Assembly: GCF_000785535.1 (NCBI RefSeq)
Contig: NZ_CP007595.1
Coordinates: 1,488,001-1,552,000 of the forward strand
DNA: 64,000 nt
Direction of reading: 5' to 3'
DNA from: Arthrobacter sp. PAMC 25486
Lineage (GTDB): Bacteria; Actinomycetota; Actinomycetes; Actinomycetales; Micrococcaceae
Shown here in pieces: positions 22,965 to 59,136 of this stretch; positions within the stretch are counted from its first letter, which is position 1; each line of letters starts with the position of its first letter. Made by a program: the position numbers and the translations under genes. The notes under the pieces were generated by a model. That model had not been told where the DNA came from. It made no database searches and was given only the letters and a program-made list of their open reading frames with translations.

Positions 22965-24617
22965 TTACATCCGCTCCGGGGCGGAGACGCCCAGCAGCGA
23001 CAGGCCGTTGGCGAGGACCTGGCCCACGGCGTCGTTGAGCCACAAGCGGGTGCGGTTCGTGTCCGTGACGGGCTCCTCGCCCATGGGGGTGACGCGGCAG
23101 GCGTCGTACCAGCGGTGGTAGGCGCCGGCGATGACTTCCAGGTGGCGGGCCACGCGGTGCGGTTCACGGAATCCGGCAGCGTGGGAGAGCACACCGGGGT
23201 ACTGGCCGAGGACTGCGAGGAGCTCGGATTCGGTGGCGTGGCGCAGCAGTGCAGCATCAAAGACCGTGCGCTCCACGTTGGCGGCGGCGGCGTTGCGGCC
23301 CACTGCGCAGGTGCGGGCGTGGGCGTACTGCACGTAGAACACGGGATTCTCGTTGGACTTCTTCGTCAAAACGTCCAAATCGATGTCGATGTTGGAGTCG
23401 GAAGAGAAACGGGCCAGCTGGTAGCGGGCGGCGTCGGTGCCGACAATCTCCACGAGGTCTTCCATGGTGACCACCGTGCCGGCGCGCTTGGACATGCGCA
23501 CGGGCGTCCCGTCCTGAACCAGGTTCACCATTTGGCCGATGAGGACCTCGACGCGGTTGGCGTCGTCGCCCATGGCTGCCGCGGCGGCCTTCAGGCGGGC
23601 CACATAGCCGTGGTGGTCGGCGCCGAGCATGTAGATGCACAGGTCAAAGCCGCGGTCACGCTTGTTCTTGAAGTAGGCGATGTCCCCGGCGATGTAGGCG
23701 GCGTTGCCGTCACTCTTGATGACAACGCGGTCCTTGTCGTCGCCGTAGTCGGTGGAGTTCAGCCACCAGGCACCGTCCTTGAGGTACATGTTCCCGGAGC
23801 CCTTGAGCTGTTCGAGCAGCTTCTCCACGGCGCCGTCCTCAAAGAGGGAGTTCTCGTGGAAGTAGACGTCAAAGTCGACGCCGAACTCGTGCAGTGACTT
23901 CCGGATCGCCGCGAACATGAGCTCGACGCCCTGGGCGCGGAACTCTTCCTGCGGGTCTTCTTTGCTGAGGATGTCCGGGTTGTTCGCCATGACTTCCTTG
24001 GCGATGTCCTCGATGTACGCTCCGCCGTAGCCGTCTTCCGGTGCAGGCTCGCCCTTGGCGCTGGCCAGGAGGGAGCGGGCAAACTTGTCGATCTGGTTGC
24101 CGTGGTCGTTGAAGTAATATTCGCGGGTCACGTCCGCGCCCTGGGACAAGAAGATGCGGGCCAGGGAATCACCCACGGCTGCCCAGCGGGTGCCGCCGAG
24201 GTGGATGGGGCCCGTGGGGTTGGCAGAGACGAACTCCAGGTTGATCTTGGTGCCGGCCATCTGGGTGTTGCTGCCGTAGGCTTCGCCTGCTTCGACGATG
24301 GCCTTCGCCAGCTCGCCTGCGGCTGCCGCGTCAACAGTGATGTTCAAGAAGCCGGGGCCGGCAATGTCCACCTTGGAAACACCGGGAATATCGCCGAGGC
24401 GGCTCTGCAGGATCTCGGCGATCTTGCGCGGCGGCACGCCGGCCGGCTTGGCCAGCTGCAGTGCGATGTTGGTGGCCCAGTCGCCGTGGTCGCGGCTCTT
24501 GGGCCGGTCCACCTTGACTTCCGTGGGCAGCGCCTCGGCGGGAACGGTGATATCACCGGCGTCGACGGCTTCTTTTAGGCAGGAGGTAATGGCGGCAGAA
24601 AGTTCTTCAGGAGTCAC
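22965..24617 (-). CDS. argS: Arginyl-tRNA synthetase
   Basis: ArgS charges tRNA-Arg. The 550-residue class I enzyme has the HIGH-type motif in [19 protein letters not shown], the KMSKS-type motif RMSKRAGTV, and a C-terminal DALR anticodon-binding domain ending GVSAPERM. It starts with GTG at 24617 and a TACACT element lies at 24630-24625, so the mRNA may be leaderless. It heads the lysine/threonine operon. Confidence 0.96.
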
Positions 24618-46526: not shown

Positions 46527-47327
46527 TCAGGCGCCACCCAGCCGCTTGGTGATCAATCGTGCCGTTTGCGCACACGCCTCACCCAGGGTCTGCAAGCGTT
46601 CCGGGGACACCCGGAACCGTGGTGCCGGGATCAGTACGGCAGCCACCGGGTTGCCGCGGTGGTCGTACACGGGTGCGGCCACACCCACCTCATCCAGCGA
46701 TGATTCTCCGTAGTTCGTGGCATAGCCGCGCTTGGCAGAGTCGGCGAGCCGCAGCAGGTACGCTTCAAGCCCTGCCTCGTCGATACCGGCAAAGGCGATG
46801 GTGCCACTGAGGATGAGCTCACGCACCCGCGCTTCCGGTTCCAGGCCCAGAAAAACCTGCACAGAGGCACTCATGGCGTCGCGGTACAGGGCACCGAGGG
46901 GTGTGGTGTGCTTGACCTGCTGGGGGCTGGCAATTTGTTCCACACACATGGCTTCGCTGCCGTTCCACACCATCAGGGCACTGGTCTCGGCCGTCCGCTC
47001 CGTCAGCTGGCACAGCAAGGGGTAGGCCACCCGCCGCTCCTCCAATTCGGCCAGCAGGGGTCCGGCCACTGCGATCAGGCCCAGCCCCAGCTTGTAACGG
47101 CGAGAGCTTGAATCACGCGCCACGAGGTCTTCTTGTTCCAGGGTGGCCAGGATCCGCGACACTGTGCTTTTGTGCATGCCCACGCGCAGGGCGATCTCCG
47201 TGACTCCCAACAACGGCTCTTCGGCGGAAAAACAGCGTAGGACGGCGATGGCATTCACGATCACCGAGGTGCCGCGGGCGTCAGGGGCTGTGTTGGCGCC
47301 GTCGGGCGTGTTCGCTGTAGTCGTCAT
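46527..47327 (-). CDS. IclR-family transcriptional regulator of the creatine cluster
   Basis: The winged helix (about residues 20-80, AIAVLRCFSAEEPLLGVTEI and VGMHKSTVSRILATLEQEDL) is followed by the IclR effector domain (about 90-266) with ALMVWNGSEAMCVEQI and DEVGVAAPVYDHRGNPVAAV. I start at the ATG at 47327, with GGAAAG 10 nt upstream; another ATG lies 9 nt earlier. It lies just downstream of creatinase on the same strand and is the best candidate to bind the paired operators at 50126-50150 and 50280-50304. The effector could be creatine or sarcosine, which is inference. Confidence 0.9.
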   Translation of the reverse strand: MTTTANTPDGANTAPDARGTSVIVNAIAVLRCFSAEEPLLGVTEIALRVGMHKSTVSRILATLEQEDLVARDSSSRRYKLGLGLIAVAGPLLAELEERRVAYPLLCQLTERTAETSALMVWNGSEAMCVEQIASPQQVKHTTPLGALYRDAMSASVQVFLGLEPEARVRELILSGTIAFAGIDEAGLEAYLLRLADSAKRGYATNYGESSLDEVGVAAPVYDHRGNPVAAVLIPAPRFRVSPERLQTLGEACAQTARLITKRLGGA

Positions 47328-47370
47328 GATCACCATCTTTCCCTATTGCGCTCACGTTGTGGACAAAGGC

Positions 47371-47405: not shown

Positions 47406-48662
47406 TTACGCGCCGATGATGTTGTGTTCCGGGCCGAACGGGAACTTCGTGATGTTCTCAGCACCGTCTTCACCGACCACCAGGATGTCGTGCTCGCGGT
47501 AGCCGCCCGCGCCCGGCTGGCCATCCAGAACGGTGATCATCGGCTCCATCGAGACGACCATGCCCGGTTCCAGCACGGTGTCGATGTCCTCACGCAGTTC
47601 CAGCCCGGCTTCGCGGCCGTAGTAGTGCGAAAGGACGCCGAAGGAGTGTCCGTAGCCGAAGGTGCGGTTCGCGAGCAGCCCGCGGTCCACGTAGATCTCA
47701 TTGAGCTCGGCGGCGATATCCTTGCAGACGGCGCCGGGTTTGATCAGTTCCAGCCCGCGGCGGTGGACCTCAACGTTGACGTTCCACAATTCCAGCGAGC
47801 GGGCATCGGGCTCGCCCAGGAACAAGGTGCGTTCCAGTGCCGTGTAGTAGCCGCTGGTCATGGGGAAGCAGTTCAGCGACAGAATATCGTGTTCCTGCAG
47901 CTTGCGCGTGGTGGCCCAGTTGTGGGCGCCGTCGGTGTTGATGCCGGACTGGAACCACACCCAGGTATCGCGGATTTCCGAGTTGGGGAAGGTGCGGGCA
48001 ATCTCGTGCACCATCGCCTCGGTGCCGATCAGGGCCACCTCGTATTCGGTGATGCCGGGACGAATCGCGTTGCGGATGGCTTCGCCGCCGAGGTCGCCGA
48101 TGCGGGCGCCGTGCTTGATGACAGCGATTTCCTCCGCCGACTTGATCATGCGCTGGCGCATGGCGTCCTGCGCCACGTCAACTAAGGTCACGCCGTCGAA
48201 AGCTGCCTGGATCTTGTTGCGGTTGTCCAGCGGCAGGGAGTCGTCCTCCACGCCGAGGCGGCGGACCTTGACCCCGCGGGTGCGCAGGGATTCCTGGATG
48301 GCGAAGATGTAGTTGTCCCGGCGCCAGTCCGTGTAGACGATGTTGTCGCCGTACCCGCGGCGCCACGGCATGCCGGCGTCGATGTTCGCGGTGACGGTGA
48401 CGGTGTCGTCCTTCGTCACCACCATGGCGTAGGAACGGCCAAAGGAGGTGAACAGGAAGTCGGAGTAGTACTTGATGCCGTGGTAGCTGGTCAGGACGAC
48501 GGCGTCCAGGTCCTTGGCTGCCATGATCGTGCGCAGGCCGGCCAGGCGGCGTTCCATTTCTGCGTCGGAGAACGTCAACTGCACCTTTTGGCCGTTATGC
48601 AGGACCTTCAAGCGCTCCAGCTCGGCGACGGAGGTGGCGGTTTCGGGGGTGGTGATGGTCAT
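47406..48662 (-). CDS. Creatinase (creatine amidinohydrolase)
   Basis: Creatinase hydrolyses creatine to sarcosine and urea in the cytoplasm. The 418-residue pita-bread-fold protein has FQSGINTDGAHN with His247, corresponding to the catalytic His232 of Pseudomonas putida creatinase, and the conserved FGYGHSFGVLSHYYGREAGL and EPMITVLDGQPGAGGYREHD segments of that enzyme. It lacks the full set of metal ligands of M24 aminopeptidases, as expected for creatinase. AAGGAG precedes the ATG. It lies 64 nt after the MHS transporter, and the sarcosine oxidase genes are divergent, which supports the assignment. Confidence 0.93.
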   Translation of the reverse strand: MTITTPETATSVAELERLKVLHNGQKVQLTFSDAEMERRLAGLRTIMAAKDLDAVVLTSYHGIKYYSDFLFTSFGRSYAMVVTKDDTVTVTANIDAGMPWRRGYGDNIVYTDWRRDNYIFAIQESLRTRGVKVRRLGVEDDSLPLDNRNKIQAAFDGVTLVDVAQDAMRQRMIKSAEEIAVIKHGARIGDLGGEAIRNAIRPGITEYEVALIGTEAMVHEIARTFPNSEIRDTWVWFQSGINTDGAHNWATTRKLQEHDILSLNCFPMTSGYYTALERTLFLGEPDARSLELWNVNVEVHRRGLELIKPGAVCKDIAAELNEIYVDRGLLANRTFGYGHSFGVLSHYYGREAGLELREDIDTVLEPGMVVSMEPMITVLDGQPGAGGYREHDILVVGEDGAENITKFPFGPEHNIIGA

Positions 48663-48726: not shown

Positions 48727-50103
48727 TCAGTGTTTCAGGGGGGCCTTGGACGTTTCCTTGGCGAGGGACACGGCAACCAGTGATACGACGGCGGCTGCCA
48801 TCAAGTACCAGCCAGGGGCCAGGTTGGAGCCGCTGACGTTGATCAGCAGTGTCGAGACGAATAGTGCGGTGCCACCAAAGAGGGCATTGGTGAGATTGAA
48901 GCTCACGGCAAATCCGCTGTACCGGACCTTGGTGGGGAACAGTTCGGCGAGGAAGCTGGGCAGCGTTCCGTCGTTGAGGGTCAACATGGCGCCCAGCAGG
49001 ATCTGGACCAGGATGATCACCACGAAATTTCCTGTGCCCAGGAGCATGAACGCAGGCACGGTCAGCACCACGAACAGGATCGAGGCTGTAATGAGGACCC
49101 GTTTGCGGCCAAACCTGTCCGAGGCCATGCCCGTCAGGAAGATGAAGCCAATATAGGTGGCGAGGGCCACGGTGGTGGCGATGAATGACAGGGAGGCATC
49201 CAGTCCAACAACCTCGCTGAGGTAGGTGGGCATGTAGCTGAGCACCACATAGAAGCCCACTGCGTTCAGGACCACGGCACCGACGGCGATCAACAGTGGG
49301 CGCCATTGTTCGCGGAACATGGCCATGACGGGCGCCTTGATGGCTTCGTCTTCCTTTTCCAGGGCCAGGAATGCCGGGGTGTCCTCAAGCTTCACCCGGA
49401 TGTAGCGGCCAATCAGGCCCATCGGGGCTGCAAGCAGGAACGGCAGGCGCCAGCCCCAGGAGTTCAGCTGGTCCGGGGCCAGTGACACTGATAGCAGCAA
49501 CGCGATCAAGGAACCCAGGAGCAGCCCGGTGGCGGTGCTGGCCGGCACCACGGCAGCGTAGAGTCCTCGCCGGTTCGCGGGGGCGTACTCGACCAGGAAG
49601 GCTGAGGCGCCGGCGTATTCACCGGCTGCCGAGAAGCCCTGAACAACCCGGATAATCAGCAGCAGGATCGGCGCCCAAATGCCAATGGTGTTGTAGCCGG
49701 GTATCAATGCTATTGCGAAGGTTGCCGCGGACATGATCAGGATCGAGAGGGACAGGGCGTTCTTGCGCCCCACCCTGTCCCCGATGTGCCCCCAGATGAA
49801 GCCGCCGATGGGACGGACAAAGAAGGAGATGGCGAACAGGCCGAACGTCAACAGCAGCGCGGTCTGCTTGTCTGCTTCGGGGAAGAACACGTGGGAAATG
49901 GTGACTGCCAGATAGCCGTACACGGCGTAGTCGAACCACTCAACAAAATTGCCGATGAAGCTGGCGCCAACTACGCGGCGCAAGGTGCTTTTGGATACCT
50001 GATTGCAATTCTCGGGGTAGGGCTGTCCACTCAGGCTCGTCGGCTCGGGACGTTGCGGCATCGTTGCCGCCCTGCCGGAGCTTGTGGGTTGCTGATTTGT
50101 CAT
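48727..50103 (-). CDS. MHS-family MFS transporter, probable creatine importer
   Basis: The 458-residue protein has 12 predicted membrane helices and the metabolite:H+ symporter signatures [19 protein letters not shown] and [23 protein letters not shown] members such as ProP and ShiA carry zwitterions and small acids, which suits creatine or sarcosine. I start at the ATG at 50103 (GGTGGA 4 nt upstream) rather than a TTG 11 codons earlier that would overlap the operator. It forms an operon with creatinase, and its promoter shares an operator motif with the divergent sox operon. Confidence 0.88.
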
Positions 50104-50125
50104 TTGATCCACCAAAGAGTTTGGG

Positions 50126-50150
50126 GTTGCGTTCAACGCAACACTGTTGC
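50126..50150. promoter_or_regulatory. Operator of the transporter-creatinase operon
   Basis: The sequence is GTTGC-N7-GCAAC-N3-GTTGC. The first 17 bp (50126-50142) form a perfect palindrome, GTTGCGTT-C-AACGCAAC. It covers about +1 to +20 of the predicted minus-strand transcript. The same arrangement recurs at 50280-50304. Confidence 0.75.
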
Positions 50151-50153
50151 ACC

Positions 50154-50182
50154 AGATTATGTGTGGCGCGCATCACCGTCAA
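50154..50182 (-). promoter_or_regulatory. Promoter of the transporter-creatinase operon
   Basis: On the minus strand TTGACG (50182-50177), a 17-nt spacer and TAATCT (50159-50154) form a near-consensus housekeeping promoter. Start would be near 50147, just before the operator at 50150-50126. Confidence 0.7.
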
Positions 50183-50252
50183 GACCTTTTCGGCAATAAT
50201 TCCAAAGATTTTTCCCTCGTCAGGAAAATTATCAAGTTTTTCCTACCAGCTA

Positions 50253-50281
50253 TTGACGTACGTCACATCCATCCCTAATGT
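50253..50281 (+). promoter_or_regulatory. Promoter of the glyA-sox-sdaA-purU operon
   Basis: TTGACG (50253-50258), 17-nt spacer, TAATGT (50276-50281). A perfect 12-bp palindrome TGACGTACGTCA (50254-50265) overlaps the -35. The promoter mirrors the divergent one at 50154-50182 in both elements and spacing. Confidence 0.7.
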
Positions 50282-50304
50282 TGCATTCACCGCAACTCAG
50301 TTGC
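50280..50304. promoter_or_regulatory. Operator of the glyA-sox operon
   Basis: GTTGC-N7-GCAAC-N3-GTTGC, the same three half-sites and spacings as at 50126-50150, in the same orientation on the plus strand. It overlaps the end of the -10 and the start site, as a repressor site would. The ribosome site GAAGGA of glyA follows. Confidence 0.75.
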
Positions 50305-50333
50305 ATCCAAAGCGACATTATGAAGGAATAACG

Positions 50334-51659
50334 ATGACGTTCACCCTTGACGACACCCTGGCAGGCGCCGACGCCGAAGTTGCTGCTGCCATCACGGCCG
50401 AACTTCTGCGCCAGCAATCGACGCTTGAGATGATCGCCTCCGAGAACTTTGCACCCATCGCAGTCATGGAAGCCCAGGGCTCGGTGCTGACCAACAAATA
50501 TGCTGAGGGCCTCCCGGGCAAGCGGTACTACGGCGGCTGCGAACATGTTGACGTGATTGAGCAGCTGGCCATCGACAGGGTCAAGGCCCTGTTTGGCGCC
50601 GAGGCCGCCAACGTCCAGCCACACTCCGGCGCTCAGGCCAACGCCGCCGCCATGTTCGCCCTGTTGGACCCGGGCGACACCATTATGGGACTGGACCTGG
50701 CCCATGGCGGGCACCTGACCCACGGGATGCGCATCAACTTCTCCGGCAAGCTGTACAACGTGGTCCCGTACCATGTTCGCGAATCCGACATGACGGTGGA
50801 CATGGCCGAAGTTGAGGCGCTGGCGCTGGAGCATCAGCCCAAGTTGATCGTGGCCGGCTGGTCAGCCTACACACGCCAACTCGACTTTGCCGAGTTCCGC
50901 CGCATCGCGGATCTGGTGGGCGCCTACCTGATGGTGGACATGGCCCACTTTGCCGGGCTCGTGGCCGCCGGCCTGCACCCGAACCCGGTGCCGCACGCCG
51001 ACGTCGTCACCACCACAACGCACAAGACCCTGGGCGGACCGCGTGGGGGTGTCATCCTCAGCAAGGAATCGCTGGCACGGAAGATCAACTCCGCCGTGTT
51101 CCCGGGCCAGCAGGGCGGGCCGCTGGAACATGTGATCGCTGCGAAGGCCGTGTCCTTCAAGATCGCCGCCTCCGAGACCTTCAAGAACCGCCAGGAACGC
51201 ACCCTGGAGGGCGCCAAGATCCTGGCCGATCGCCTGCTCGCCCCGGATGTTGCCGAATACGGGATCTCCGTGGTGGGCGGCGGCACCGACGTCCACCTGG
51301 TCCTGGTGGACCTGCGCAACTCCGCACTGGATGGGCAGCAGGGTGAGGACAGGCTGCACCGGATCGGCATCACCGTCAACCGCAACGCGGTCCCCTTTGA
51401 CCCCCGCCCGCCCATGGTCTCCTCCGGGCTGCGCATCGGCACCCCGGCCCTGGCCACCCGCGGCTTCGGCCCGGCCGAATTCACCGAGGTTGCCGACATC
51501 ATCGCCGAAGCCATCAAGGGCGAGCTCAGTGAAGAGTCCGCCGTGTTGCTTCGCGACCGCGTCACCATCCTGGCCGAAAAATTTCCGCTGTACCCGCACC
51601 TCTCCGGCGCGGTCCTTACCAATACCGCCGGAACCACCCCGAACGGAGTCGCACAGTGA
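50334..51659 (+). CDS. glyA: Serine hydroxymethyltransferase
   Basis: GlyA joins glycine and 5,10-methylene-THF to serine, or the reverse. The 441-residue PLP enzyme has the catalytic Lys in [23 protein letters not shown] and [15 protein letters not shown]. In this operon it would rejoin the two products of sarcosine oxidation, glycine and methylene-THF, one to one. This copy is probably pathway-specific; a housekeeping glyA is expected elsewhere. The ATG at 50334 has GAAGGA upstream; the longer open frame to 50064 runs through the promoter. The stop overlaps the soxB GTG. Confidence 0.95.
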
Positions 51660-52876
51660 GCGCCGACCACCTTCCGGAGCACCCAGAATTCCTGTGGCGC
51701 AACCCGGACCCCAAGAAATCATACGACGCCGTGATTGTTGGCGGTGGTGGCCACGGATTGGCGACAGCCTACTTCCTGGCCAAGAACCATGGCATGACCA
51801 ACATTGCCATCCTGGAAAAGGGCTGGCTGGCCGGCGGCAACATGGCCCGCAACACCACCATCATCCGTTCCAACTACCTGTGGGATGAAAGTGCGGCCAT
51901 TTACGAGCACTCCCTCAAGCTGTGGGAGATCCTGCCCGAGGAACTTGAGTACGACTTCCTGTTCAGCCAGCGCGGGGTCATGAACCTGGCCCACACGCTT
52001 GGCGACGTGCGTGAAAGCATGCGCCGGGTCGGGGCCAACCAGCTCAACGGAGTCGACGCCGAGTGGCTGGACCCCAAGCAGGTGAAGGAACTCTGCCCGA
52101 TCCTGAACATCAACGACAACATCCGCTACCCCGTCATGGGCGCCACCTACCAGCCGCGTGCCGGCATCGCCAAGCACGACCACGTGGCCTGGGCGTTTGC
52201 CCGCAAGTGCGACGAGCTCGGTGTGGACATCATCCAAAACTGCGAGGTCACCGGATTCATCAAGGACGGCAACAAGGTCACGGGTGTCAAGACCACCCGC
52301 GGCACCATCAACACCGAAAAGGTGGGGCTGTGCGCGGCCGGGCACAGCTCGGTGCTGGCCGAGATGGCAGGGTTCCGCCTCCCCATCCAGTCCCACCCGC
52401 TGCAGGCTCTCGTCTCCGAACTGCATGAACCGGTGCACCCCACGGTGGTCATGTCCAACCATGTGCATGTGTACGTCTCCCAGGCCCACAAGGGCGAACT
52501 GGTCATGGGTGCCGGCGTCGACTCCTACAACGGCTACGGCCAGCGCGGCTCCTTCCACGTCATCGAGGAACAGATGGCGGCCGCCGTCGAGCTGTTCCCC
52601 ATCTTTGGCAGGGCCCATGTGCTACGCACCTGGGGCGGGATTGTGGACACCACCATGGACGCTTCGCCCATTGTGGGGGCCACCCCGGTGGAGAACATGT
52701 TCGTGAACTGTGGCTGGGGTACCGGCGGTTTCAAGGGAACCCCCGCAGCCGGGCTGACGTTCGCCCACACGATCGCCACCGGAACCCCGCACACCCTGAA
52801 CAAGCCGTTCTCGCTGGAGCGTTTCGAAACCGGCGCCCTCATCGACGAACACGGCGCCGCAGCCGTGGCTCACTAA
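51656..52876 (+). CDS. soxB: Sarcosine oxidase subunit beta
   Basis: SoxB carries the catalytic site of heterotetrameric sarcosine oxidase, which oxidises sarcosine to glycine and a methylene group. The 406-residue flavoprotein has the FAD motif [19 protein letters not shown] (residues about 24-42). His174 in [12 protein letters not shown] is the likely covalent FMN attachment residue by analogy to Corynebacterium SoxB. It starts at a GTG overlapping the glyA stop by 4 nt. Confidence 0.95.
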
Positions 52877-53270: not shown

Positions 53271-56219
53271 ATGACCGGGCAGAACAACCAGCCGAACAGG
53301 CTCACCCACGGCGGACGAATCGACCGCAACACCACCTTGCACTTCACCGTGGACGGCGCCGCCCTGGCGGGCCACCCCGGCGACACGGTGGCCTCGGCGC
53401 TGATTGCCAACGGCCGCCTGGCCGCCGGCAACTCCCTGTACGAGGACCGCCCCCGCGGCATCCTTTCCGCCGGCGTTGAGGAGTCTAACGCGCTCATCAA
53501 GGTCGCCGGCCGCTTCCCCGGCCACGCCGCCGAATCCATGCTGCCGGCCACGACCGTCTCCCTGGTGGAGGGTCTCGACGTCGAGCTCCTCTCCGGGCTG
53601 GGCAAGCTGGACCCCACCGAGGACGAGGCCATCTACGACAAGAAGTACGTCCACACGGACGTCCTGATTGTCGGCGGCGGCCCCGCCGGGCTCGCCGCGG
53701 CCCGCGACGCCGCCCGCACCGGCGCCCGCACCATCCTCATCGACGACCAGCCCGAACTCGGCGGGGCCCTGCTCTCGGGCCGCGACGAGCACGTGGCCGG
53801 CACCCCGGCCCTGGACTGGGTCGCCGGCATTGCCGCCGAACTGGCCGCCGCCCCGGAATGCACCGTGCTGCACCGCACCACCGCTTTCGGCTCCTACGAC
53901 AGCAACTTCCTGCTCGCTGTGGAAAACCGCACCGACCACCTCGCCGAGGCCCCGGCCCCCGGCATCTCCCGCCAGCGGGTTTGGCACATCCGTGCCAACC
54001 AGGTGCTCGTGGCCACCGGCGCCCACGAACGCCCACTCGTGTTTGAAAACAACGACCGCCCCGGCATCATGCTCGCCTCGGCGGTCCGCAGCTACCTGAA
54101 CCGCTACGGCGTGGCCGCCGGCTCCCGCGTGGTCATCGCCACCACCAACGACAGCGCCTACCAGCTGGCCGCGGACCTGCTCGCCGCAGGCATCGAGGTC
54201 GCCGCCGTCGTTGACGCCCGCCCGCAGCTGTCCCCGCTCGCCGCGGCCGCCGCCACCAGCGAGGATGTGCGTGTCATCAACGGCAGCGCCGTGGTCAACA
54301 CCACCGGTGATTCATCGCTGGAGTCGGTCCTGGTTTCCGGGATCGACGCCGACGGCTCCCCCACCGGTGAGGTCGAGGAAATTTCCGCGGATCTGCTCGC
54401 CGTCTCCGGCGGCTGGAGCCCCGTGGTGCACCTGCATAGCCAGGCCCAGGGCAAGGTGCGCTGGGATGCGGATCTGGTTGGTTTTGTCCCCTCCAGCGTG
54501 GTCAAGAACCAGCAGGTGGTGGGCGCCGCCCGGGGCAGCTATACCCTGTCAGGCTGTGTTGCCGAGGGCGCCTCGGCCGGTGCGGTTGCGGCCGTCAGCG
54601 CCGGGTTTGCCACGGCCGACGCCGTTGCTGCCGCCACCGCAGCTGCAGCGCGCCCGGCCCGCCCGGCCCAGCCCACGGCCCCGACCCGCGCCTTGTGGCT
54701 GGTCGGCGGTACGGAAGGAACGGCGTCGGACTGGCATCACCACTTTGTGGACTTCCAGCGGGACCAGAGCGTGGCCGACGTTTGGCGCTCCACCGGGGCA
54801 GGGCTGCGCAGCGTGGAGCACATCAAGCGCTATACCTCCATCAGCACCGCCAACGACCAAGGCAAGACCTCCGGGGTGAATGCGATCGGAGTCATTGCGG
54901 CCGCGTTCCGCCAGCAGGGCACCGTCGTGGACCCGGACATCGGCGCCATCGGCACCACCACCTACCGCGCCCCGTTCACCCCCGTGTCCTTCGTTGCCCT
55001 GGCCGGACGGCAGCGCGGGGATCTCTTTGACGCGGCACGACGCACCTCCATCCACCCGTGGCACGAAGACCGCGGAGCACTTTTTGAGGACGTCGGTCAG
55101 TGGAAGCGCCCCTGGTTCTACCCGCGGCCGGGCGAAGACATGGATGCTGCCGTGCTGCGCGAGTGCGCCGCAACCCGCGACTCCGTCGGCTACATGGATG
55201 CCAGCACGCTGGGCAAGATTGAAATCCGCGGCAAGGACGCCGGGGAGTTCCTGAACCGGATCTACACCAACGCTTTCAAGAAGCTTGCCCCCGGTCTGGC
55301 CCGCTACGGTGTCATGTGCACCCAGGACGGAATGATCTTTGACGATGGCGTGACCCTGCGCCTGGATGAGGACCGCTTCTTCATGACCACCACCACCGGC
55401 GGCGCGGCCAAGGTGCTGGACTGGCTGGAGGAATGGCTGCAGACCGAGTGGCCCGAGTTGGACGTCACCTGCACCTCGGTGACGGAGCAGTGGAGCACCA
55501 TTGCCGTCGTCGGCCCCAAGTCACGGGCTGTGCTGGCGAAGCTGGCACCGGAGCTGGACCTGTCCGCCGAGGCGTTCGGGTTCATGGCGTTCCGCGAAAC
55601 AACGCTCGCCTCGGGCGTGCCGGCCCGGATCTGCCGGATCTCCTTCTCCGGCGAGCTCGCCTACGAGATCAACGTCCCGTCCTGGTACGGGCTGGACACG
55701 TGGGAGGACGTGACCGCTGCCGGGGAGGAATTCAACATCACCCCGTACGGCACCGAAACCATGCACGTGCTGCGTGCCGAAAAGGGCTACCCGATTGTGG
55801 GCCAGGACACCGACGGCACGGTTACACCGCACGACGCCGGCATGGAATGGGTGGTATCCAAGGCCAAGGACTTCATCGGCAAACGCTCCTATCAACGCCC
55901 CGATGCCAACAGTGAAAGCCGCAAGCACATGGTCACCGTGCTGCCCGTGGACGGTTCCATCCGGCTGCCGGAAGGCACCCAGCTGGTGGAGGCCGGGATC
56001 ACCGTCAACCCCGCATACGGGCCCGTGCCCATGCAGGGCTTCGTCAGTTCCAGCTACCACAGCGCCGCCCTGGGCCGGTCCTTCGGCCTGGCCCTGATCA
56101 AGAACGGCCGCAACCGGATCGGTGAACGGCTTGTGGCAAGTGTCGGCTCCCAACTGGTGGACGTCGTCGTAGGGGAAACAGTACTTTTTGATGCAGAAGG
56201 GAAGCGCCGAGATGGGTAA
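53271..56219 (+). CDS. soxA: Sarcosine oxidase subunit alpha
   Basis: SoxA binds NAD+ and THF and completes the oxidase. Domains of the 982-residue protein are: a 2Fe-2S-like fold at the N terminus (about 15-105), an FAD/NAD-binding module (about 125-440, [20 protein letters not shown]), a linker, and a C-terminal GcvT-like aminomethyltransferase module (about 590-980, [17 protein letters not shown]) that transfers the methylene group to THF. It starts 3 nt after soxD and overlaps soxG by 8 nt. Confidence 0.95.
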
Positions 56220-56859
56220 CACAATCGACAACACCAAGGTAATGGCACGCCGCCACAGCCCCGCGGAACACCTCTGGACCGATTTCGAGGTGGGGACCGT
56301 TGCCGGGGAGCGCGGGGTTTCCCTGCGCGAGGTCCCCTTCCAGAGCATGGTCGGAATCCGTGTCGATCCGCTTTCCGAGGCCGGCCGGCGGATAGGTTCC
56401 CTCACCGGCGGGCTGCCCTCCACGGCCGGCCAGGTCACGTACGGGAAGGTCGCAACAGCGGCTGCCACAACAACAACGCTCTGGCTGGGACCGGACGAGT
56501 TCCTGGTGGTTGGTCCGGAAGAATCCGCCGCGGGGACCCTGGCCGCCGCCCTGGTGGCCGCCCTGGGCGACGGGGCAGGGCAGGCCATCGACCTCTCCAG
56601 CAACCGCACCACCTTTGAACTGGCCGGGCCAAGCGCCCGGGCCGTGCTGGAAAAGAGCTGCGCGGCGGACCTGCACCCACGATCCTTCGCAACCGGAACC
56701 GCCATCACCACGGAAATCACCAAGATCCCCACCATCTTGTGGAAGGCCGGGGACGAGTCATTCCAGATCTTCCCCAGAGCGTCCTTTGCCGACTACCTGG
56801 GCCGCTGGTTCCTGGACGGCATGCGGGAATTCGCGTCCGGGAGCGCACCGTGGCACTAA
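56212..56859 (+). CDS. soxG: Sarcosine oxidase subunit gamma
   Basis: The 215-residue subunit has a GcvT/YgfZ-like fold ([43 protein letters not shown]) and contacts the alpha subunit's folate module. I choose the ATG at 56212 with GAAGG upstream; it overlaps the end of soxA. A GTG of the next gene lies inside its last codons. Confidence 0.93.
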
Positions 56860-58224: not shown

Positions 58225-59136
58225 ATGAGCACCCTTTCCGCACCGGCCGGGACCGCCCAATACGTGCTGACCCTGGACTGTCCCGACAGTCCGGGGCTGG
58301 TCCACCAGGTCTCGGGAGTCCTGCTCAAGCACGGCGCCGACATCATCGACAACCGCCAGTTCAGCGACCGCCTGCACCTCCAGGGGGCCCTCGGGCGGGA
58401 CGAACCGGACGGGCGGTTCTTCATGCGCCTGCACTTCAGCGCCCCGGCCGGGGAGGAATCCTTGGCCCGCCTGCGGGCAGACTTTGAGCCGTTGGCTGCC
58501 CGGCACGCCATGCGGTGGGAGTTGCGCCCGCACGGCGAAAAGCGCCGCGTGCTGATCATGGTGTCCAAGTTTGAGCACTGCCTGAACGACTTGTTGTTCA
58601 GGACACGGACCGGCGAGCTGCCCGTGGAGGTGGTTGCGGTGGTCTCCAACCATCCGGACCACCAGCGGTTGGCACAATGGCACGGCATTCCGTTCTTCCA
58701 TGTCCCCGTCACCGCTGCCACAAAACCTGCAGCGGAGGCCAGGCTGCTGGAGCTGGTGGAGGAGTTCGACGTCGAACTGGTGGTGTTGGCACGCTACATG
58801 CAGGTGCTCAGCGATAGCCTCACCCGCCGGCTGGACGGGCGGGCCATCAACATCCACCATTCATTCCTGCCCTCCTTCAAGGGTGCCAAGCCGTACCACC
58901 AGGCGTATGCGCGCGGGGTGAAGACGGTCGGGGCCACGGCCCACTACGTCAACAGCGAACTGGACGAGGGGCCCATCATCTCCCAACAGGTTGTCGAGGT
59001 GGACCACACCTTTGGCCCGGAGGACCTGGTCGCTGCGGGCCGGGACACCGAGTGCAAGGCCTTGAGCAACGCCGTGCGCTGGCATTGCGAAGGGCGCGTG
59101 ATCCTCCAGGGGAACCGGACCATCGTGCTGCGTTGA
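58225..59136 (+). CDS. purU: Formyltetrahydrofolate deformylase
   Basis: PurU hydrolyses 10-formyl-THF to formate and THF, recycling THF when one-carbon units are in excess, as expected during sarcosine use. The 303-residue protein has an N-terminal ACT domain (about 12-85, YVLTLDCPDSPGLVHQVSG) and a formyltransferase-type domain (about 105-300) with the catalytic set in INIHHSFLPSFKG and SELDEGPIISQQ. Its ATG follows the sdaA stop by one base. PurU genes commonly accompany sox operons. Confidence 0.95.
   Translation: MSTLSAPAGTAQYVLTLDCPDSPGLVHQVSGVLLKHGADIIDNRQFSDRLHLQGALGRDEPDGRFFMRLHFSAPAGEESLARLRADFEPLAARHAMRWELRPHGEKRRVLIMVSKFEHCLNDLLFRTRTGELPVEVVAVVSNHPDHQRLAQWHGIPFFHVPVTAATKPAAEARLLELVEEFDVELVVLARYMQVLSDSLTRRLDGRAINIHHSFLPSFKGAKPYHQAYARGVKTVGATAHYVNSELDEGPIISQQVVEVDHTFGPEDLVAAGRDTECKALSNAVRWHCEGRVILQGNRTIVLR

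Follow-up and report, generated by a model that had tools for sequence, protein, structure and literature searches.

The divergent region between the transporter and glyA genes in the creatine cluster of Arthrobacter sp. PAMC 25486 raises the question of which protein might read the repeats lying over its back-to-back promoters, and how the genes on both sides would respond to it. A sequence-only reading of the window (the whole stretch of 64,000 nucleotides that was analysed) had described two copies of GTTGC-N7-GCAAC-N3-GTTGC in this region. Both 25-bp copies, designated operators A and B, are exact, with half-sites alternating in direction and gaps of N7 and N3 (Table 1). The exact pattern matched twice in the genome (4,593,579 bp), both times within the divergent region of 230 bp. 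Assuming the base composition of the window and independent bases, 0.011 exact sites per genome are expected, and the chance of finding at least two of them in 230 bp is approximately 1.5e-13. When up to three mismatches were allowed, the window yielded six matches against 4.7 expected, and thus the exact matches alone stand out. The genome contains four copies of the palindrome GTTGCRNNNNNYGCAAC, in A, in B and at positions 23316 and 2693811; the exact third half-site is absent at the latter two.

Table 1. Positions of genes and predicted regulatory elements in the window
Feature	Position	Strand	Details
IclR-family regulator, proposed A/B-binding repressor	46527..47336	-	Pfam HTH_IclR and IclR_C
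Creatinase (creatine amidinohydrolase)	47406..48662	-	PDB 1chm, E 6.6e-170; Pfam Creatinase_N, Peptidase_M24
MFS transporter	48727..50103	-	Start ATG at 50103; NCBIfam metabolite/H+ symporter, ProP below cut-off
Operator A (creT side)	50126..50150	+	Half-sites GTTGC 50126-50130, GCAAC 50138-50142, GTTGC 50146-50150
Promoter-like hexamers, creT-creatinase-iclR	50154..50182	-	TTGACG 50182-50177, 17 bp, TAATCT 50159-50154
Promoter-like hexamers, glyA-sox	50253..50281	+	TTGACG 50253-50258, 17 bp, TAATGT 50276-50281
Operator B (glyA side)	50280..50304	+	Half-sites GTTGC 50280-50284, GCAAC 50292-50296, GTTGC 50300-50304
Fourth half-site of operator B, GCGAC	50312..50316	+	One-mismatch match 50292-50316 on the minus strand
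glyA, serine hydroxymethyltransferase, gene 1 of the sox cluster	50334..51659	+	NCBIfam PRK00011 and Pfam SHMT above cut-off
soxB	51656-52876	+	NCBIfam above cut-off
soxA	53271-56219	+	NCBIfam above cut-off
soxG	56188-56859	+	NCBIfam, below its cut-off
sdaA	56811-58223	+	NCBIfam above cut-off
purU	58225-59136	+	NCBIfam PurU above cut-off

Both domains of the IclR protein clearly exceeded their Pfam cut-offs (HTH_IclR, 55.7 bits against 22; IclR_C, 74 bits against 24), and its residues 98-268 were matched by PDB 3obf (E 1.7e-71). The MFS transporter is possibly a CreT-like creatine importer, a role known for CreT of C. glutamicum (PMC8864220), and its gene is referred to as creT below. Growth on creatine and sarcosine has been reported for Arthrobacter sp. 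Rue61a, which also possesses the glyA-sox cluster (PMC3534580), and in Bacillus thuringiensis sox is controlled by Sigma54 and SoxR (PMC4941409).

The near-identical diverging promoter-like hexamers were present as described, TTGACG and TAATCT on the minus strand and TTGACG and TAATGT on the plus strand, each pair separated by 17 bp. Operator A begins 3 bp past the minus-strand -10 region, and operator B shares two bases with the plus-strand -10, which lie within its first half-site. Putative transcription start sites were placed from the hexamers alone. Since A and B run in the same direction on the plus strand, they have opposite orientations relative to their own promoters. When the complete intergenic region was aligned (five rows from four distinct genomes, two rows apparently representing one genome), both operators and both promoter regions were conserved, including the hexamers on the creT side and the promoter region on the glyA side. 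The first half-site of B reads GTTTC in two of the four genomes. The perfect palindrome TGACGTACGTCA at 50254-50265 overlaps the -35 region of the glyA promoter, and a TGAC...GTCA pair is kept in the aligned relatives, possibly as the target of another regulator.

Half-sites 1 and 2 of operator A form a perfect 8-1-8 palindrome, GTTGCGTT-C-AACGCAAC. The description of three half-sites per operator held for A, and it did not hold for B, where a fourth half-site, GCGAC, completes a second palindrome, centred 20 bp from the middle of the first. Operator B is therefore composed of the tandem palindromes GTTGC-N7-GCAAC and GTTGC-N7-GCGAC, the latter half-site being identical in all four distinct genomes of the alignment, and at A only half of the second palindrome is present. 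Another part of the sequence-only reading, that the N7 spacer bases differ freely, has to be abandoned. The spacers of A and B (GTTCAAC and ATTCACC) are identical at five of seven positions, and several N7 columns were biased across the 58 non-redundant sites introduced below. A fourth half-site is not a general property, as these 58 sites exhibited no GCAAC consensus beyond the third half-site. Looping between A and B at a fixed phase was also considered; however, the distances of paired sites ranged from approximately 135 to 155 bp among relatives and thus do not maintain a fixed helical phase.

Recurrence of the motif in relatives, which the sequence-only reading had made the measure of its proposal, was found within Micrococcaceae: 154 of 395 family genomes contained an exact copy, compared with five of 395 for the reversed-pattern control (counted by eye). 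Within the genus, ten of 23 genomes including that of the window had an exact site, and the reversed control had none in the same 23. Eleven genus sites were found outside the own genome, nine adjoining an MFS gene, one glyA and one (L012) another gene. Relatives have conserved operator A next to creT. Near glyA the site persists in some relatives only, and two loci (L034 and L035) contained the creT site and none near glyA. In rearranged clusters (L113, L114, L119, L120 and L126) the sites precede creT or creatinase; L120 harbors two MFS genes, one of them without a site. An IclR search gave 24 named loci with at least 52% identity, comprising 18 with an exact site, two with one mismatch (L040 of Streptomyces and L043 of Brevibacterium) and four without a site. 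Exact sites were also present in two other Streptomyces loci, L039 and L041. Three of the four loci without a site are on contigs that stop short of the region, and in L042 the iclR and creatinase matches are truncated. No site was detected at any of the nine loci of IclR relatives with at most 34% identity (L044-L052). The observation made on A and B is confirmed; the two sites are strongly conserved and, judging from their sequences, are predicted to be real operators.

The anatomy of the motif was examined on 89 distinct exact sites. Seven of the GTTGCT type were separated out on the basis of the bases following half-sites 1 and 2, and the remaining 82 were reduced to 58 non-redundant sites for statistics. 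A purine followed half-sites 1, 2 and 3 in 55, 53 and 52 of the 58 sites, respectively, and therefore the unit is mostly GTTGCR. We also scored promoter pairs, that is, TTGACA/TATAAT-like hexamers whose -10 lies three to five bases away from the operator. On the side of the third half-site such a pair was present at 21 of the 58 sites, the other 37 falling below the score, against a mean of 0.4 and a maximum of three in 200 shuffles. A promoter on the side of the first half-site can be dismissed as a general rule, because it was found at one of 58 sites compared with 0.6 in the shuffles. Operator B, with the -10 over its first half-site and two palindromes 20 bp apart, has a different layout, which is the minority one.

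The iclR gene of the cluster had been named as the obvious candidate for the regulator, and the distribution of the motif bears this out. Orthologs of IclR (E <= 1e-30) were called in 178 and orthologs of creatinase (E <= 1e-150) in 177 of the 395 genomes. The exact motif was present in 151 of 178 genomes with IclR and in three of 217 genomes without it, and it also tracked creatinase (148 of 177 against six of 218). These counts come from one family-wide draw, uncorrected for shared ancestry, and joint inheritance accounts for some of the co-occurrence, since motif and iclR sit together with creT. As iclR and creatinase are linked, the informative cases are the genomes that separate them, of which there were 11 only. 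Among the five possessing creatinase and no IclR, none contained the exact motif, nor did the 10-18 kb around their creatinase genes contain sites with up to two mismatches, although the contig of G356 includes no more than 0.9 kb upstream of the gene. Among the six with IclR and no creatinase, three contained the motif. The sites follow iclR, not creatinase alone. Exact motifs in genomes without IclR at this threshold were those of G040, G097 and G353, the last being 83% complete. Furthermore, 24 genomes had IclR and creatinase and no exact motif. In 13 of the 14 such loci that were fetched a site with one mismatch was identified, mostly next to creT, the third half-site reading GTTGT or GTTGA; its placement was less clear in L146 and L147 than in the other loci. 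The exception, L150, lies on a contig that stops 2.7 kb upstream of creatinase and gave no creT match.

We consider it highly probable from this sequence evidence that A and B are the operators of the IclR protein, which would repress creT-creatinase-iclR and glyA-sox-sdaA-purU until released by a metabolite. IclR dimers would read the GTTGCR half-sites, with two dimers bound next to each other on palindromes spaced 20 bp from centre to centre. At A, the promoter -10 would occupy the far half-site of the second palindrome, while at B both palindromes are available. Without inducer, IclR would cover each promoter from its -10 to about +25, and both gene sets would be repressed; release would be caused by a pathway metabolite, most likely creatine or sarcosine. 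Binding, oligomer, repression, inducer and the single-operon nature of the gene runs are what we infer here. The dimer-of-dimers arrangement suggested in the sequence-only reading agrees well with the 20-bp spacing of the palindrome centres and with published tandem IclR sites that are 18-22 nt apart (PMC8222616).

It is decidedly unlikely that another factor binds A and B and that iclR is only a passenger; such a factor could be a GntR or PucR protein encoded in the cluster, or AmtR, GlnR or a similar global regulator of nitrogen metabolism. Genes for GntR(FCD) and PucR do reside near glyA or creatinase in some relatives, and AmtR controls creT in C. glutamicum, but the published AmtR site, CTAT-N6-ATAG, is a different sequence (PMC8864220). 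Moreover, none of the five genomes with creatinase and without IclR had the motif, GntR and PucR genes being located there in one of the five, and in the sister site class described below a paralogous IclR gene lies within about 3 kb at 15 of 19 amidase loci.

A further reading takes the IclR protein as an activator, or as a repressor of one promoter and an activator of the other, as proposed for BhcR, an activator for which a dual role has been suggested (PMC11323563). The differences of B from A in half-site number and in orientation to its promoter would suit this reading. Both operators, however, overlap or directly follow a -10 region, and a protein bound over or just past the -10 normally blocks RNA polymerase. 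Given also the -10-adjacent layout of 21 of the 58 non-redundant sites against 0.4 in shuffles, activation appears unlikely. Finally, inverted repeats around the inferred start sites could form hairpins in the 5'-leader of the transcript instead of serving as operators. This is hardly conceivable: the inferred start at A falls inside the third half-site, so that the transcript would lack a part of the repeat, the distances between site and gene start vary from -24 to 93 bp among the estimates listed, and the half-site letters track the gene type, not pairing.

With IclR as the preferred regulator, the system was compared with known ones. A creatine-responsive IclR operator of this form had not been recognised in the sequence-only reading; the three-box form itself has been described, since IclR operators of this type were reported for PcaU, PobR and HmgR and predicted for 32 orthologous groups (Suvorova and Gelfand 2021, PMC8222616), the third box being required in the case of PcaU. 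The gaps of the published operators, 7 nt in group 1 and 3 nt in group 2, are the same as those of A and B, and operator B with palindrome centres 20 nt apart falls into the range of 18-22 nt published for tandem palindromes (PMC8222616). In contrast, the nearest published subgroup is GTTYC(R), unlike GTTGC(R) at A and B, the fourth half-site letter G being fixed by the search pattern at all searched sites. The genes also differ, which here are those for creatine and sarcosine. The terms 'creatin', 'sarcosine' and 'Arthrobacter' are absent from the main text of PMC8222616, whose supplementary tables may list the group.

The best NCBIfam match of the IclR protein was BhcR of Paracoccus denitrificans, with 106.9 bits far below the cut-off of 350 bits of the BhcR equivalog NF045644. 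BhcR is likewise an IclR-family protein associated with a divergent promoter region, but belongs to another pathway and is a reported activator (PMC11323563). AmtR of C. glutamicum targets the same metabolism (creatine transport, creatininase, N-carbamoylsarcosine amidase and hydantoinase); it is, however, a TetR-family nitrogen regulator, and there one regulator serves both routes, whereas two IclR paralogue groups are present here (PMC8864220). The TtgV-DNA complex (PDB 2xro), which matched the IclR protein with E 4e-9, provides an IclR-family protein on DNA, although TtgV is an efflux regulator (PMC8222616). In open-licence PMC no paper was found that joins IclR with a creatinase operator, N-carbamoylsarcosine or creatininase. 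Hence, A, B and the IclR protein are most likely an unreported case of a described operator type. As a predicted pair of regulator and operator governing the catabolism of creatine and sarcosine in Arthrobacter and its relatives, to which loci in Streptomyces and Brevibacterium can be matched, they may be useful for creatine biosensors.

A sister class of sites carries T after the half-sites. In the genus hit L012/L131, GTTGCT half-sites precede a gene matching N-carbamoylsarcosine amidohydrolase (PDB 1nba, E 1.6e-171 over nearly the whole length). The corresponding pattern, GTTGCTNNNNNAGCAACNNNGTTGC, gave 19 sites in 17 of 395 genomes (control: none, by eye), 18 of which are located directly 5' of an N-carbamoylsarcosine amidase gene; the base after the third half-site, which is outside the pattern, was T in 18 of 19. 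The nineteenth site (L219 7893-7930), with overlapping matches on both strands, is located directly 5' of a fused hydantoinase A/B gene, and no IclR match was found within the 16 kb fetched. This position fits a hydantoinase step just before that of N-carbamoylsarcosine amidase in the same route, in line with PMC8864220.

A protein search for the amidase, independent of the letters, revealed 43 matches in 37 of 395 genomes. We examined 30 amidase loci, nearly all with at least 93% identity, leaving out 13 matches (11 of them at 60-67%). Twenty-one had a site within one mismatch of the 18 letters, eight had one with three mismatches and one had none nearby, so that nine of 30 possessed a poor site or none; shuffled controls gave no site with up to three mismatches in 3000. 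At the 16 exact-core sites, which are largely the same as the GTTGCTNNNNNAGCAACNNNGTTGC pattern sites and thus an overlapping sample, T followed half-sites 1 and 2 in all cases and half-site 3 in 15. Of 76 sites matched to creT, creatinase or glyA, by comparison, three, three and five had T after half-sites 1, 2 and 3, respectively; seven sites without a matched gene and one before iclR were left out of this test.

The 15 loci with a nearby paralogous IclR gene belong to the 19 of 10-19 kb that were inspected (L205-L224 less L219), and some of these paralogues are 45-49% identical to the IclR protein of the window. When 90 IclR proteins were placed in a tree, one side of a branch (99/94) consisted of the 53 creatinase-type rows, and 33 paralogue rows formed a separate group with weaker support (93/76); the tree carries a long-branch warning. 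The residue counts exclude L125_8412, which has an end branch of 2.38, and four further rows with 32-33% identity. Both types have almost the same recognition helix, HKSTVSRIL. Within residues 22-100 there were 17 separating columns, among them residues 24-25, which read S/V in the creatinase type versus A/S in the paralogues, and wing residue 79, which is R or K in 52 of 52 creatinase-type proteins versus G in 33 of 33 paralogues. Judging from the numbering, residues 24-25 probably sit at the start of alpha-1, a part of IclR proteins that has been tied to site letters (PMC8222616).

We slightly favor the view that the two paralogous IclR groups share one architecture and are told apart by the sixth half-site base, GTTGCR standing for creatine and GTTGCT for N-methylhydantoin and N-carbamoylsarcosine. 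The GTTGCR set would comprise creT, creatinase, glyA-sox and probably BCCT-creatininase, and the GTTGCT set N-carbamoylsarcosine amidase and, in one genome, the fused hydantoinase. The sixth base would be read by the start of alpha-1 (residues 24-25) or the wing (residue 79), not by the recognition helix. A single base may thus act as a code that keeps the two routes to sarcosine apart. Several loci run counter to it: L208 and L211 have the paralogue-amidase pair and yet a three-mismatch site only; L221, L223 and L224 have the amidase without a site, the paralogue being about 6 kb off at the edge of two; and L219 combines the hydantoinase site with the lack of an IclR match. If the code is true, the sister class would be a natural case of paralogous regulators avoiding crosstalk by one repeated base.

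Second sites were also observed in front of other genes, namely a BCCT transporter and creatininase pair in L038 (5465-8237) and a BCCT gene in L115 (11161-13170), the neighbours being identified by gene order. The BCCT transporter, in L038 together with creatininase, is a probable further member of the regulon. A reading of the longest frames from 19 places with second sites about 2.9 kb away yielded mostly uninformative frames. In G373 (L133 4299-8147), the interval from glyA to creatinase is occupied by genes for GntR(FCD), PucR and an NCS1-type permease instead of iclR and creT, and a creatininase-like frame, read by eye from the letters, is located 3' of creatinase. The creatinase clusters of G058, G122, G218 and G243 harbor two iclR copies about 2.4 kb apart, and the genus members G002, G006, G009, G015 and G022 gave two creatinase matches each. 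One internal TAA was present in the creatinase match of G239 and of G260.
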